This document shows positions 28,150 to 58,291 of a DNA stretch of 64,000 bases, piece after piece; within the stretch, counting starts at the first letter, position 1; each line of letters opens with the position of its first letter. The stretch comes from Pseudomonadota bacterium. Its GTDB lineage: Bacteria; Bdellovibrionota; Bacteriovoracia; Bacteriovoracales; Bacteriovoracaceae. Location: NCBI GenBank assembly GCA_027487685.1, contig JAIYDC010000029.1:1-64000 (forward strand), given 5' to 3'. The notes below the pieces were generated by a model. It was not told the DNA's origin. It worked only from the letters and a program-made list of their open reading frames with translations, and made no database searches. Made by a program: the position numbers and the translations under genes.

Positions 28150-28731
28150 TTATCCTTTTATGTAGAGATTCCAGTTTCGGTCAGGGGTCTTGTCCCGGCG
28201 GTAGCTGTGGAGTTCAGGGTTACAGCATGTGCAGACGGGAGCGATGCTCACGATAAGAGACGGAAAGGCGATCAGAAGTTGGCGCTTCGCCTCCTCCTGA
28301 AGATTAAAGCTGAATCGGTCTCCCTGCTGGTGGAACCAGGGGCTCTCAGGAAAATTCTGCTGAAAGTCCGAGGAGACTTCAAAGCAACACTCGTGAATAG
28401 AGGGGCCAATAAAAACTCGTTGCGGCCTTATCAGCTCAATTTCTGGCTTGGCAAGAATACCGCTATGCAGGCCCCGCCATCCGGCATGAAGCACAACGAC
28501 ACCGGTCTCACCCTCGATAACAATCGGGAGACAGTCCGCCGTCTTGATGGCAAGGGGACTTTCGAGTTCTTCCCAGGAGACGAGGATACCATCGGCTTCA
28601 CACGGGAGAGTGTATAGTGTCGCTACGTCGATGCCGTGGACCTGAGTTACCTGCAAACAGTGCATGTCCGGTTTGCGGGTCCAGGTTTCGAAGCGGCCGC
28701 GGGTGAGGAGTTCAGTGAAGACGACGTCCAT
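28150..28731 (-). CDS. pgeF: YfiH/PgeF family protein (laccase-domain, purine nucleoside phosphorylase-like)
   Basis: 193 aa; QVTQVHGIDV, AIKTADCLPI, VVLHAGWRGL, IGPSIHECCFEV. Confidence 0.88.
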   Translation of the reverse strand: MDVVFTELLTRGRFETWTRKPDMHCLQVTQVHGIDVATLYTLPCEADGILVSWEELESPLAIKTADCLPIVIEGETGVVVLHAGWRGLHSGILAKPEIELIRPQRVFIGPSIHECCFEVSSDFQQNFPESPWFHQQGDRFSFNLQEEAKRQLLIAFPSLIVSIAPVCTCCNPELHSYRRDKTPDRNWNLYIKG

Positions 28732-52245: not shown

Positions 52246-52788
52246 CTAGGCTTCGCCCGCGAATGCTGGATCGATTGGTGTTGGATTAAAATGGTCAAGG
52301 TAGTTACTGATAGTCTTGAGGGCCACTCCTACAAGGACTTCCATCATCGCTTCAGGCGCAAATCCTACCTTAAGGAAAGTTTCCTTAGTCTGTTCGGAAA
52401 CAATCCCTCGTTCGCCCACGATCTCCCGGGTGAATTGAACCAGTGCTGCTAGTTTTGGATCAGGGATGACCTTTTGATTTCTGATGGCCTTTACGACATC
52501 CCCATCAACCTTCATCATTCCTTTCAGAATGGTGGAATGAGCGGCGATGCAGTAGCGGCACCGATTCTCTACCGATGTTGCCAAGAGGACGACTTGTCTT
52601 TCTTTGGGAGTAAGAGAGGACTCTTCCCAGGCAGCATCGAGGCCCATATAGCCCTTTAAGACCGCCGGAGAGTTTGCAAAAGTTGCCATCAGGTTCGGGA
52701 TGAAGCCGAAGCCCTTTTGGATGCTTTTCAAGACCTCTTTAGATCCCTCTGGTGCTGTCTCAATCGTTAATGGTTTTAGTGTGTTCAT
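52246..52788 (-). CDS. Carboxymuconolactone decarboxylase/AhpD-like protein
   Basis: FGFIPNLMATFANSPAVLKGY...SVENRCRYCIAAHSTI; ATG at 52788. Confidence 0.9.
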   Translation of the reverse strand: MNTLKPLTIETAPEGSKEVLKSIQKGFGFIPNLMATFANSPAVLKGYMGLDAAWEESSLTPKERQVVLLATSVENRCRYCIAAHSTILKGMMKVDGDVVKAIRNQKVIPDPKLAALVQFTREIVGERGIVSEQTKETFLKVGFAPEAMMEVLVGVALKTISNYLDHFNPTPIDPAFAGEA

Positions 52789-52882
52789 AATGTCTCCCTT
52801 GCATGGCCCTCTTGATTGATGGCCTTCATGTCCTGACTTTACGGTATTCCCTGATTGCACAATAGACAGATAATGGTGATAA

Positions 52883-52907
52883 CATATATTCTTATTTAGA
52901 ATATATG
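52883..52907. promoter_or_regulatory. Inverted repeat overlapping the lysR start codon
   Basis: CATATATTC-ttattta-GAATATATG, 9-bp perfect arms; ATG at 52905. Confidence 0.6.
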
Positions 52908-53816
52908 GACCAACTACACTGTTTACGAATCTTTAGAAGAGTTGCCGAGTCTAAGTCCTTCTCACGGATTGCCCAAGAGTTTGGACTGACTCAGCCGATG
53001 GTGAGTAAGCGTGTCGCGTGGCTAGAGTCTGAACTAGGGGTGACGCTACTGAGAAGGTCTACCCGAGGGATTCAATTGACCCCTGAGGGAGAAATCCTAT
53101 ACCGTGCTGGAGGAAACGCGCTCGAAGAACTCGATGCGGTGTTCTCGTCGGTAAAGCACGAAAAACTGAAACTTTCCGGAAGCCTTCGCATCACGGCCTC
53201 GCTTGCATTCGCGCGGCTGATCATCGGACCACTTCTTACTGAATTGAGTGAACTTCACCCGGACCTGCGGCCTCACTTTCACTTAAGCGATGGCTACATC
53301 GATATGGTAGAACAAAACCTCGATCTCGCTTTCCGCATTGGTCATTTGCCGGACAGCTCCCTCAAGGCCCTAAAGATAGGTCAATCAACGAGAAAAATTT
53401 ACGGGTCTCAATCCTACTTCAAGAAATTTGGAATGCCGAAGTCGGTGGATGATCTCGCTCATCATCGATGCCTCTTGTACACGAGACTCTCGGATCTCCC
53501 AGGCTGGCCTCTCGTGGATGAAAAGGGGAAAGCAAGAAATTGGAGCTTCCGTCCTCACATGCAGTCGGATGCTTCCGATCTGATTCGACAGGCCGTAATC
53601 GACGGTCTGGGCATCGCGCTCCTCCCGTCTTGGATGATCGATGGTTTTAACGACACGAAAGGGGTGAGAGCGATCCTCCTCGAAAATGGTCCGAAGCCTA
53701 GCCCGATTTTTGCGGTGACTTCGGGTACTCGTGAACTCACGGCCAAGCAGAGAGTTGTTATTGACTACTTTAAGAAAAAACTGGATCTGAATGAATCCCT
53801 ATCTCTTCGCACCTAA
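52905..53816 (+). CDS. LysR family transcriptional regulator
   Basis: 303 aa; MDQLHCLRIFRRVAESKSFSRIAQEFGLTQPMVSKRVAWLESELGVTLLRRSTRGIQLT. Confidence 0.95.
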   Translation: MDQLHCLRIFRRVAESKSFSRIAQEFGLTQPMVSKRVAWLESELGVTLLRRSTRGIQLTPEGEILYRAGGNALEELDAVFSSVKHEKLKLSGSLRITASLAFARLIIGPLLTELSELHPDLRPHFHLSDGYIDMVEQNLDLAFRIGHLPDSSLKALKIGQSTRKIYGSQSYFKKFGMPKSVDDLAHHRCLLYTRLSDLPGWPLVDEKGKARNWSFRPHMQSDASDLIRQAVIDGLGIALLPSWMIDGFNDTKGVRAILLENGPKPSPIFAVTSGTRELTAKQRVVIDYFKKKLDLNESLSLRT

Positions 53817-54350: not shown

Positions 54351-54797
54351 TCAGTTTCTAAAAAAGGGATTGATAACGTTGATGAAAATTTCTCCCACTT
54401 CAATTTTTGCCTCTCTTACGACAATATTTTGAGGTGTATAGCCTCCAATGGGACATTCTACGATGTGACCGACTAAGACCTGGCCACTCGCCGTCTGTGG
54501 TAAATTGAGTTTTTGCGCCTGAAACAAGAAATAGGATGTTTTTTGGGAGGTATTGATTTTCCTGCGACTCTCATAAAAATCTCTGGCCTCGGGATCATTA
54601 ATGGAGAGAATTCCGGAGAAACTCAGCTGGTGACTGTGATGTCCGGATGCCACGAGATGGCCAAAGAATGAATCGCTCTCCGGAATAATGAATCCATGTT
54701 GCATTTCGTGCTGCATGCCTTCTGGTGAGGCGTTCACAGGATGGTTACTGAGAAGTCCAGTGATCAGAACGAGGACTAAGGCACATATTTTTTTCAT
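54351..54797 (-). CDS. Secreted His-rich-N-term protein, unknown function
   Basis: 148 aa; signal peptide; MQHEMQHGF...VASGHHSHQLSFSG. Confidence 0.65.
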   Translation of the reverse strand: MKKICALVLVLITGLLSNHPVNASPEGMQHEMQHGFIIPESDSFFGHLVASGHHSHQLSFSGILSINDPEARDFYESRRKINTSQKTSYFLFQAQKLNLPQTASGQVLVGHIVECPIGGYTPQNIVVREAKIEVGEIFINVINPFFRN

Positions 54798-54869
54798 ACT
54801 CTCTCCTTGATGTGAGTAGAGTATTTATAGGTTGCAAGCTACACTTGATGAATAGCAAAGCTTGCAAGG

Positions 54870-55730
54870 ATGACTGCATCTTTTGCAAGTTCGAGGATAA
54901 CGATGACATCACCCACAGTAAGGTTCCCTCTTTCGTCCGAACATTTGGAGCTCCTGCTCGCCTTCGAGCGCACAGGCTCCTTAAGAGAGCTTTCGGAGCA
55001 TTTAGGGAAGGATCAATCTGTCGTCTCGCGGCAGTTACAAAGACTTGGCGAAGAAGCTCCTGTGATCCAAAAGGTGCGCGGCAAATGGAGCATCACCCCC
55101 CTCGGAGTACGTATCAATCAGCTTACACTTGGTTTCGTTGCGGAATACGAGCAAAGCCTAGGAAGTGAGTCTGGGTCCCAGGTTAGTTTTGAGAACTCCG
55201 TGCTCTTAGTGATTAATGCTCAGAAGGCCCTGCTGGCGTCCAAGGCAAAGAGGAGCAATCCCTCGGCCGAAAAAAATATCCAACTGCTTTTGGATTTTTG
55301 GAGGAAGAAGGGGCGTCCAATTATCCATGTGCAGCACCTCTCTGATAATCCCCAGTCTGACTTTTATCACGCTTCACCACTGTCGAACTTCATGACCGAG
55401 ATTTCACCAGTGGGAGACGAGCAGATGATTCAAAAAATGAATCCGAGTTCATTTGCCAATAATCAGCTTGAGGATCTTCTGAGAGAAAGGGACATATCAA
55501 CGTTAGTTCTTGTCGGGTTTACTGCCAATGATTGCATCGAAGCCACCGCACGAGATTCGTTCGAAAAAGGCTTTACGACCTATATCGCCGGGGACTGCAC
55601 CGCCATGTTTGATTTTGTTGCCCATGATCAAAAAGTCCATAGCGCCCAGAAGATGCACGAACTGATCATGGCCAACATCGAGCTACGTTATGGACAAGTG
55701 AAGGATTTAAATTTCTTTCTTGGGCACTAG
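54870..55730 (+). CDS. LysR-type HTH fused to isochorismatase-like cysteine hydrolase domain
   Basis: 286 aa; HLELLLAFERTGSLRELSEHLGKDQSVVSRQLQRLGEEAPVIQKVRGKWSITPLG then VLLVINAQKALL...GRPIIHVQHLSDNP...KMNPSSFANNQLEDLL...VGFTANDCIEATARDSFEKGF. Confidence 0.85.
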   Translation: MTASFASSRITMTSPTVRFPLSSEHLELLLAFERTGSLRELSEHLGKDQSVVSRQLQRLGEEAPVIQKVRGKWSITPLGVRINQLTLGFVAEYEQSLGSESGSQVSFENSVLLVINAQKALLASKAKRSNPSAEKNIQLLLDFWRKKGRPIIHVQHLSDNPQSDFYHASPLSNFMTEISPVGDEQMIQKMNPSSFANNQLEDLLRERDISTLVLVGFTANDCIEATARDSFEKGFTTYIAGDCTAMFDFVAHDQKVHSAQKMHELIMANIELRYGQVKDLNFFLGH

Positions 55731-55739
55731 GAATAGAAA

Positions 55740-56432
55740 TTATTTGTTATCTTGGAGTGCCTTGTACGTTACCTTCACTTTTTCGTTCCTCTCGCTGTAC
55801 CGATCCACAAGGAAGTCAGCGACATCCCTTGTGAGATACGTAAACCGCATGAGTTCTTCCATAACGTCGACGACCCGCTCTCGGTAGGACGAAGGTTTCA
55901 TCGTTCCATCTTCATTGAACTCGTTAAACGCTTGAGCGACTGAAGATTGGTTAGGGATCGTGATCATCCTCATCCATCGACCCAGGACTCTCATTGTATT
56001 GACCGCATTGAAGGATTGGCTTCCGCCCGATACCTCCATCACGGCGAGAGTTTTTCCCTGCGTGGGGCGAACAGCATTGAGTGCTAAAGGAATCCAGTCG
56101 ATTTGATTCTTCAAAACAGCAGATATTGTTCCATGTAACTCCGGGCCCGACCAAACTTGTCCTTCGGACCAGACGCTCAGGTCCCTAAGTTCCTGAACCT
56201 TTGGATGATCAACGGACTTATTGTTATCAAAGACTGGCAGACCCTCTGGGTTATAGATTTTCACTTCTGCCCCCATATGAGTAAGGATTCTGCCCGCTTC
56301 TTCTGCCAGCAGGCGGCTAAAAGAGCGGTCTCGTAGAGATCCATAGAGGATCAGAATTCGAGGCGGGTGGTCAGAGGAGAGAAGCTTATTCTTGTCTGCT
56401 TTTAGATCGAATGATTGTTTATCTAGGAACAT
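55740..56432 (-). CDS. arsH: ArsH-like NADPH-dependent FMN reductase
   Basis: [94 protein letters not shown] at 56432. Confidence 0.92.
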
Positions 56433-57468
56433 GTTGAGTCTCTTTAAAATAGTGGTCTTTGAGCCAAAGTGAAACACGTACTAAAAATATAAGCACGGGC
56501 ACTTCTACCAGGGGACCAATGACGGCGGCAAAGGCAGCGCCATGATTAATGCCAAAAGTAGCAATCGCCACCGCTATGGCGAGTTCAAAGTTGTTCGACG
56601 CGGCAGTAAAGGAGAGAGTCACTGAGCGGGTGTAGTCAGCGCCTGCCTTCTTACTCAAGACGAAGGACACTAAGAACATAACAAAGAAGTAAATTGTTAG
56701 TGGCATCGCAATTCTTACGACATCCATAGGTAGCTGTACGATTTGCTCCCCTTTGAGGGAAAACATGACAACAATGGTGAACAAAAGAAAGATAAGTGTG
56801 ACGGGACTAATTCTAGGAATGAAACAACGATCGTACCAACTGGCCCCCTTGGAACTGATAAGGATTCTTCTAGTGACGAATCCGGCCAAGAAAGGAATCC
56901 CTAAATAGATGGCCACCGATTGAGCGATGTCACCCATTGTGAAGGCAACTTCAAAGCTTTTAAGCCCGAAGAGGCACGGTAAGTAAGTCATAAAGACAAA
57001 AGCGTAGAGGGGAAAGAAGAGGATTTGAAAAATTGAATTAAAGGCTACAAGCCCGGCGCAATATTCTGCGCTTCCTTTCGCTAACTGGTTCCAGACGAGT
57101 ACCATGGCTATGCACCGTGCAAGACCGATCAAGATAAGGCCCATCATATAGTCAGGATGATCTCTCAGGAAGAGGATGGAGAGGCCAAACATGAGCAGGG
57201 GTCCTATGAGCCAATTTTGAACAAGTGAAAGGAGGAGAATTTTTCGATCTTTAAAGACCATGCCAATTTCTTCATATTTTACCTTGGCCAGAGGAGGGTA
57301 CATCATGAGGATGAGGCCGATAGCAATAGGGATGGATGTGGTGCCGATGCTTAAGGAATGAAGAAGCCCAGAGAAGGCCGGGACATAAATCCCCAGGAAG
57401 ACTCCAACGGCCATTGCTAAAAAAATCCATACTGTGAGGTAGCGGTCCAGGAATGAGAGATTCTTCAC
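56419..57468 (-). CDS. acr3: Arsenite efflux transporter, ACR3 family
   Basis: 349 aa; [81 protein letters not shown]. Confidence 0.95.
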
Positions 57469-57881
57469 AGGTAGTCCTTCAGGTTTTTAACAGTGGTTTC
57501 GATTTCATCTCTGACCCTCCGGTAAATGGTGAGGATCTCGTTTTCATCGGCCATGTCCTTCGTCAGGGCGGGTGGATCCTGGAATCCAATGTGGACTATC
57601 TTTCCACCTGGGAAGTAGGGGCAGCTCTCTTTGGCGGAATCACAAACGGTGACGACGTAGTCGAATCTTACTTTGGGAAGTTCATCAACCGTCTTCGAGA
57701 AGTGAGATGAGATATCCACTCCAGCTTCTTTCATGACTTGCATCGCCCGGAGATTCATCCCGTGTTTTTTCGTTCCAGCAGAAAAGACCTCGAATTCATG
57801 GCCCCAATACTTTCGGCAAAAGCCTTCCGCCATTTGCGAGCGGCAGGAGTTTCCAGTGCATAAGAACACAATGGTCTTCAT
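57465..57881 (-). CDS. arsC: Arsenate reductase, low-molecular-weight phosphatase type
   Basis: 138 aa; [40 protein letters not shown]. Confidence 0.95.
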
Positions 57882-58291
57882 TTTTTACCTAAGCCCTTTT
57901 CAAAACATTCCTGAACTTTATATTCTCGAATTTGATCCTGATCTCCATCACACGCACAAGCTAATTGGCCTAGGCTTTTCTTCATGCGTGTGAGGTCTTC
58001 GATTTTCTGTTGAATTTCATTTATTTTTTGCTCTGTCTTTAGCTTGACGGTAGAGCAGGTGACCCTCGACTTCGTATTGAGCTCAAGAAGTTCCTTGATC
58101 TCGTTCAGTGTAAAGCCTAAGTCTTGGGCCCTTTTGATGAAAAGGATTCGTTGGGCATCCTCTGGGGCATAGATTCGAAATGCCCCGACACTCTTGGGCT
58201 CTCTGAGGAGACCCCGACGTTGGTAAAAGCGGACGGTTTCAATTCCTACGCCAGCGAGTTCAGCAATTTTGCTGATGGTTAGTTTTTCCAT
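57878..58291 (-). CDS. MerR family metal-responsive regulator, first gene of the ars operon
   Basis: 137 aa; LTISKIAELAGVGIETVRFYQRRGLLREPKSVGAFRIYAPEDAQRILFIKRAQDLGFTLNEIKELLEL; C79, C112, C114, C129. Confidence 0.92.
   Translation of the reverse strand: MEKLTISKIAELAGVGIETVRFYQRRGLLREPKSVGAFRIYAPEDAQRILFIKRAQDLGFTLNEIKELLELNTKSRVTCSTVKLKTEQKINEIQQKIEDLTRMKKSLGQLACACDGDQDQIREYKVQECFEKGLGKK

Follow-up and report, generated by a model that had tools for sequence, protein, structure and literature searches.

The window, the 64,000-nucleotide stretch of DNA analyzed here, encodes a protein in which a LysR-type winged helix-turn-helix (HTH) is joined to an isochorismatase-like cysteine hydrolase domain with asparagine in place of the catalytic aspartate (Table 1). 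The same architecture and the same replacement are found in three other genomes of the phylum. We consider it probable that this protein is a LysR-like regulator in which a silenced, ligand-sensing cysteine hydrolase domain has taken the place of the effector domain, and that it controls the divergently transcribed gene.

Architecture and distribution of the fusion

The reading frame is open throughout positions 54870-55730 (+; 286 aa). The earlier note placed the gene start at 54870, which is 33 bases too early: the homologs align at ATG 54903, which is preceded at a few bases by a Shine-Dalgarno sequence, GAGGA (54893-54897), and is the most likely start, and the discarded segment 54870-54902 contains the candidate operator. 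A Pfam search started with the fusion protein identifies Isochorismatase (PF00857) at residues 110-262, with an E-value of 2.2e-29, and an HTH_1 (LysR) match at residues 24-63 that, at 23.7 bits, falls under the 26.6 cut-off. The LysR_substrate (periplasmic-binding-protein-like, PBP-like) domain is absent, the C-terminal half giving only Isochorismatase in Pfam, both in the window fusion and in the other fusions checked. The HTH half is 32-46% identical to the HTH regions of regulators from the phylum; the closest of these are proteins of about 280-310 aa with a C-terminal half that resembles LysR_substrate, a domain confirmed in the two that were scanned. Judging by these sequence comparisons, the fusion HTH and its kin constitute a divergent LysR branch that is scarcely recognized or missed by Pfam HTH_1; the alignment is too short for the HTH tree to resolve the branching order or a single origin. 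The assignment of both domains in the earlier note is thus borne out by Pfam and by the homology of the HTH to LysR regulators, and its suggestion that a cysteine hydrolase fold replaces the usual LysR sensor is right, since the fusion HTH is homologous to regulators that bear LysR_substrate.

With the LysR-type regulators, the fusion shares the homologous winged HTH and linker as well as a T-N11-A operator in the divergent intergenic region, with the start of the divergent neighbor about 85 bp away, but it has the isochorismatase-like domain where they have LysR_substrate. With the isochorismatase-like cysteine hydrolases (PF00857; PDB 3mcw and 4h17, PncA, BiuH, TrtA), it shares homology over the full length of the domain, with the Cys and Lys kept, and differs from them in the Asn for Asp, the altered D-H-C-V-S-T segment and the fused HTH. 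The PDB entries 3mcw and 4h17 are structural relatives of the enzyme domain matched by sequence. An AlphaFold2 model built from two sequences (mean pLDDT 56.7) is confident for the HTH only (block pLDDT 75-90 at residues 21-70); a helix is predicted at residues 66-87, in the linker region, with low confidence from residue 71 on. The enzyme half of the model is poor, too weak to judge the geometry of the pocket or the active site; Foldseek nonetheless ranks isochorismatase-family entries first.

A search of all 369 genomes available for the phylum identifies full-length fusions in four of them, from three genera and two families: the window genome, G006 (same genus, 72% identity to the window fusion), G194 (same family but another genus, 45%) and G160 (another family, 38%, the most distant). 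The earlier note had allowed for a fusion unique to this sequence and resulting from a frame artefact; because the same fusion, with no internal stops, is present in the three other genomes, that objection fails and a frame or assembly artefact is dismissed. The fusion is rare and patchy, being found in only 2 of the 26 genomes of the window's genus; none of the four genomes encodes any other protein of the isochorismatase family. A peptide-pattern scan of 84,980 species genomes, the reach of which is limited to close kin, yielded nothing beyond the copy from the same genus and one free-standing relative, and a search of viral contigs detected no fusion. Two plasmid candidates (H9 and H12), in which the matches spanned the enzyme region and part of the HTH region, were rejected because in both of them these regions belong to separate genes.

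Table 1. Features of the fusion gene, its active site, the divergent gene and the intergenic region (window coordinates).
Feature	Position	Strand	Basis or remarks
HTH-isochorismatase fusion gene, corrected start	54903..55730	+	275 aa; start aligned with homologs in L002, L006, L060
LysR-type winged HTH and linker helix, residues 1-90	54903..55172	+	Pfam HTH_1 (sub-threshold); identity to regulator HTHs; model
Isochorismatase-like (cysteine hydrolase) domain, residues 97-275	55191..55727	+	Pfam PF00857; PDB 3mcw and 4h17 by sequence; Foldseek
Asn105 (codon AAT) at the catalytic Asp position	55215..55217	+	Asn in all fusions
Lys178, catalytic Lys kept	55434..55436	+	column invariant in the 18-row alignment
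Remodeled active-site segment N-D-C-I-E-A	55527..55544	+	fusion-specific columns 209, 210, 213, 214
Cys211, nucleophile position kept	55533..55535	+	column invariant in the 18-row alignment
Divergent gene, small secreted His-rich protein (148 aa), proposed target	54351..54797	-	kept beside the fusion in G006; remote homolog beside the fusion in G194
Candidate LysR-type operator TGCATCTTTTGCA (T-N11-A, TGCA-N5-TGCA)	54875..54887	.	same box in L002, L060; upstream of 7/15 related regulators
Second half-site TTGCAA, candidate activation site	54862..54867	.	TGCA at -69/-69/-68 from the divergent ATG in three genomes
Possible -10 element TATAAA of the divergent gene	54824..54829	-	putative, read from sequence; box center then near -64

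Active site of the fused enzyme domain

The catalytic residues were compared in an alignment of 18 rows, the four fusions and 14 free-standing relatives. In the region of the V-D-x-Q motif, three of the fusions read VINAQ and the fourth LVNTQ, whereas all 14 free-standing relatives contain Asp. The replacement of this Asp in the window sequence, and the presence of the nucleophile Cys and the Lys motif, are as the earlier note described them. It had also raised the possibility that homologs retain the Asp; the homologous fusions do not (Asn in 4/4), in contrast to the free-standing homologs (Asp in 21/21, that is, the 14 alignment rows and seven proteins from plasmid records). The enzyme domains of the fusions group together as a single clade (support 97/93). 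They are set apart from the nearest free-standing relatives at columns including 105 (D to N), 180, 181, 209, 210 (H to D/E), 213 (S to E/D) and 214 (T to A), in other words, the Asp itself and residues beside the Lys and the Cys, so that the segment around the Cys reads (N/S)-(D/E)-C-x-(E/D)-A in the fusions instead of D-H-C-V-S-T.

In the published mechanisms, the Asp is assigned roles in substrate binding, stabilization of the Lys and activation of the deacylating water (PMC7948467; PMC5531466). The D8N mutant of PncA, which carries the same Asp-to-Asn replacement, has reduced pyrazinamidase activity, with the protein amount like that of the wild type (PMC5605632), and the D36A mutant of biuret hydrolase (BiuH) loses all activity (PMC7948467). 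Because these Asp mutants of other family members lose activity or show a drop in it, turnover is likely lost in the fusions. Some chemistry may remain given the retained Cys and Lys, which counts against a silenced enzyme. The invariance of these two residues, together with residue 210, which is an acid in every fusion but His in the free-standing relatives, would fit a bifunctional (trigger) regulator that still hydrolyzes its substrate, with Asp/Glu210 beside Cys211 standing in for the lost Asp, and in which DNA binding depends on the substrate or its turnover. Considering that PncA and BiuH have reduced or no activity once the canonical Asp is changed to Asn or Ala, we regard this scenario as unlikely. 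Quite improbable is a covalent one-shot sensor, in which Lys178-activated Cys211 would attack the ligand and, without the water-activating Asp, the thioester would persist, the acylated form being the gene-regulatory signal. The residue lost in the fusions is exactly the one proposed to activate the deacylating water, and the Cys and Lys are kept, but the same Asp is also proposed to stabilize the Lys and to bind the substrate, so that acylation may fail as well.

Candidate operator and gene neighborhood

Three of the four fusions (window, G006 and G194) are preceded by the T-N11-A box, whose center lies 84, 84 and 85 bp, respectively, from the divergent start codon; the distance to the start of the fusion gene itself varies among the three genomes. 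When the G194 region is dinucleotide-shuffled, a box at that place appears in 0.025% of the shuffles. The G160 fusion has neither the box nor the divergent partner. The motif, defined from the fusions, was tested independently upstream of 15 sensor-bearing relatives and 14 free-standing enzymes: it was detected upstream of seven of the 15 related regulators with a normal LysR sensor (shuffles: mean 0.1, maximum 1), with the exact box absent in the other eight, and upstream of none of the 14 enzymes. Upstream of the 15 relatives, the spacing of 5 stands far above every other spacing from 0 to 15. A genome-wide search yields 11 matches versus 4 for the reversed-pattern control; a second box in the window, at 28652, lies within a coding region and was taken as a chance match. 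Given that the box recurs in three of the fusions and in seven of their sensor-bearing kin, the DNA site of the LysR branch seems to have been retained by the fusion, and this shared operator supports DNA binding by the fusion protein. A scan of the divergent gene's region for a consensus sigma-70 promoter found none.

The 148-aa protein encoded by the divergent gene contains an apparent signal peptide and invariant histidine residues. Its counterpart in G194 (L060 3380-3868) is a member of a larger secreted family with HGM-FG-SHLP-PH motifs, and a profile comparison of the two families gives a probability of 92.9 and an E-value of 3.8e-7, with the signal peptide forming part of the match. The 148-aa family is found away from fusions too, so that its link to the fusion is positional, not exclusive. 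Both families are made up of small secreted proteins and are related to one another; their invariant His residues lie in the patterns MQHGFI..HLVA..HS and HGM..FG..SHLPMF..PH.YQ (window 54351-54797 (-); L060 3380-3868; L076-L087); Pfam reports no family above its cut-off for the scanned members of either, and the proteins are possibly metal-binding. Several sensor-bearing relatives likewise adjoin a gene for a secreted protein, in many cases a divergent one from an HEWGTFTS family. The regulators of the LysR branch in L011, L012, L013, L017 and L021, all with the normal sensor, are next to, and often divergent from, genes for secreted proteins with the conserved HEWGTFTS...GLHHEEE motif, and a TGCA-N5-TGCA box is frequently located between them or upstream. 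By these sequence features, the LysR branch and the HEWGTFTS...GLHHEEE genes represent a candidate uncharacterized regulon.

On its other side, the fusion gene in the window adjoins an arsenic gene cluster (55740-58291 (-)) that includes ArsH (NCBIfam equivalog) together with genes assigned by eye to an arsenite-type transporter, an ArsC-like phosphatase and a MerR-like regulator; G006 shares the cluster but lacks ArsH at the corresponding place. Elsewhere in the window, an AhpD-like, peroxidase-related gene (52246-52860 (-)) is divergent from an ordinary LysR regulator (52905-53816 (+)). The proximity to arsenic-resistance genes in the window genome and in G006 could be taken to imply an arsenic- or thiol-stress regulator of these genes, with Cys as the sensing residue. 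This is very improbable: a single Cys (211) is invariant across the fusions, ars genes are absent from the stretches read around the fusions of G194 and G160, and the conserved box suggests the divergent gene as the target. Arsenic sensing was rejected on the Cys conservation and the neighboring genes.

A recruited enzyme fold as the probable sensor of a LysR-like regulator

A decaying or chance fusion without function, as its rare (4/369 genomes) and patchy occurrence might suggest, has a negligible probability given the same stop-free architecture in four genomes across genera and families, the low dN (0.19) with saturated dS between the window fusion and L002, which indicates that the fusion is under constraint, the invariant Lys and Cys, and the conserved operator geometry.

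For a ligand-sensing regulator with a silenced hydrolase domain, the following scheme can be proposed. The PBP-type effector domain would have been replaced, probably once in the phylum, by an isochorismatase-like cysteine hydrolase domain, which then would have lost the catalytic Asp (to Asn) and been remodeled around the Cys. The HTH would bind at TGCA-N5-TGCA (T-N11-A), in the region flanked by the fusion gene and the gene for the small secreted protein, and a ligand in the former active site, for which the earlier note suggested a nicotinamide-, isochorismate- or N-carbamoyl-like compound, would alter the seating of a dimer or tetramer on the half-sites and, in this manner, control the divergent gene. 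We infer ligand sensing by such a route as well as the sign of regulation, with autorepression being probable, as in ordinary LysR systems.

Enzyme folds have also been recruited, as actual or presumed effector sensors, in other HTH regulators: MocR/GabR (aminotransferase fold), ROK repressors (sugar kinase fold), GATase1-like AraC regulators and BzdR (shikimate kinase fold). The fusion resembles these in combining an HTH with an enzyme fold used, or presumed to be used, as an effector sensor, but it differs from them in both the HTH class and the enzyme fold. A search of the open-licence literature, which is weak evidence of absence, found no relevant publication on an isochorismatase domain joined to an HTH. 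The fusion would extend the range of folds known to act as sensors in LysR-like regulators, and biosensor design may gain a modular part from it. It seems to be a sensor swap made by nature and supplied with its own controls, in which the operator recurs in relatives with the normal sensor, the free-standing enzymes contain Asp and the fusions all contain Asn, so that a few point mutants would allow a direct test of how an enzyme turns into a ligand sensor.
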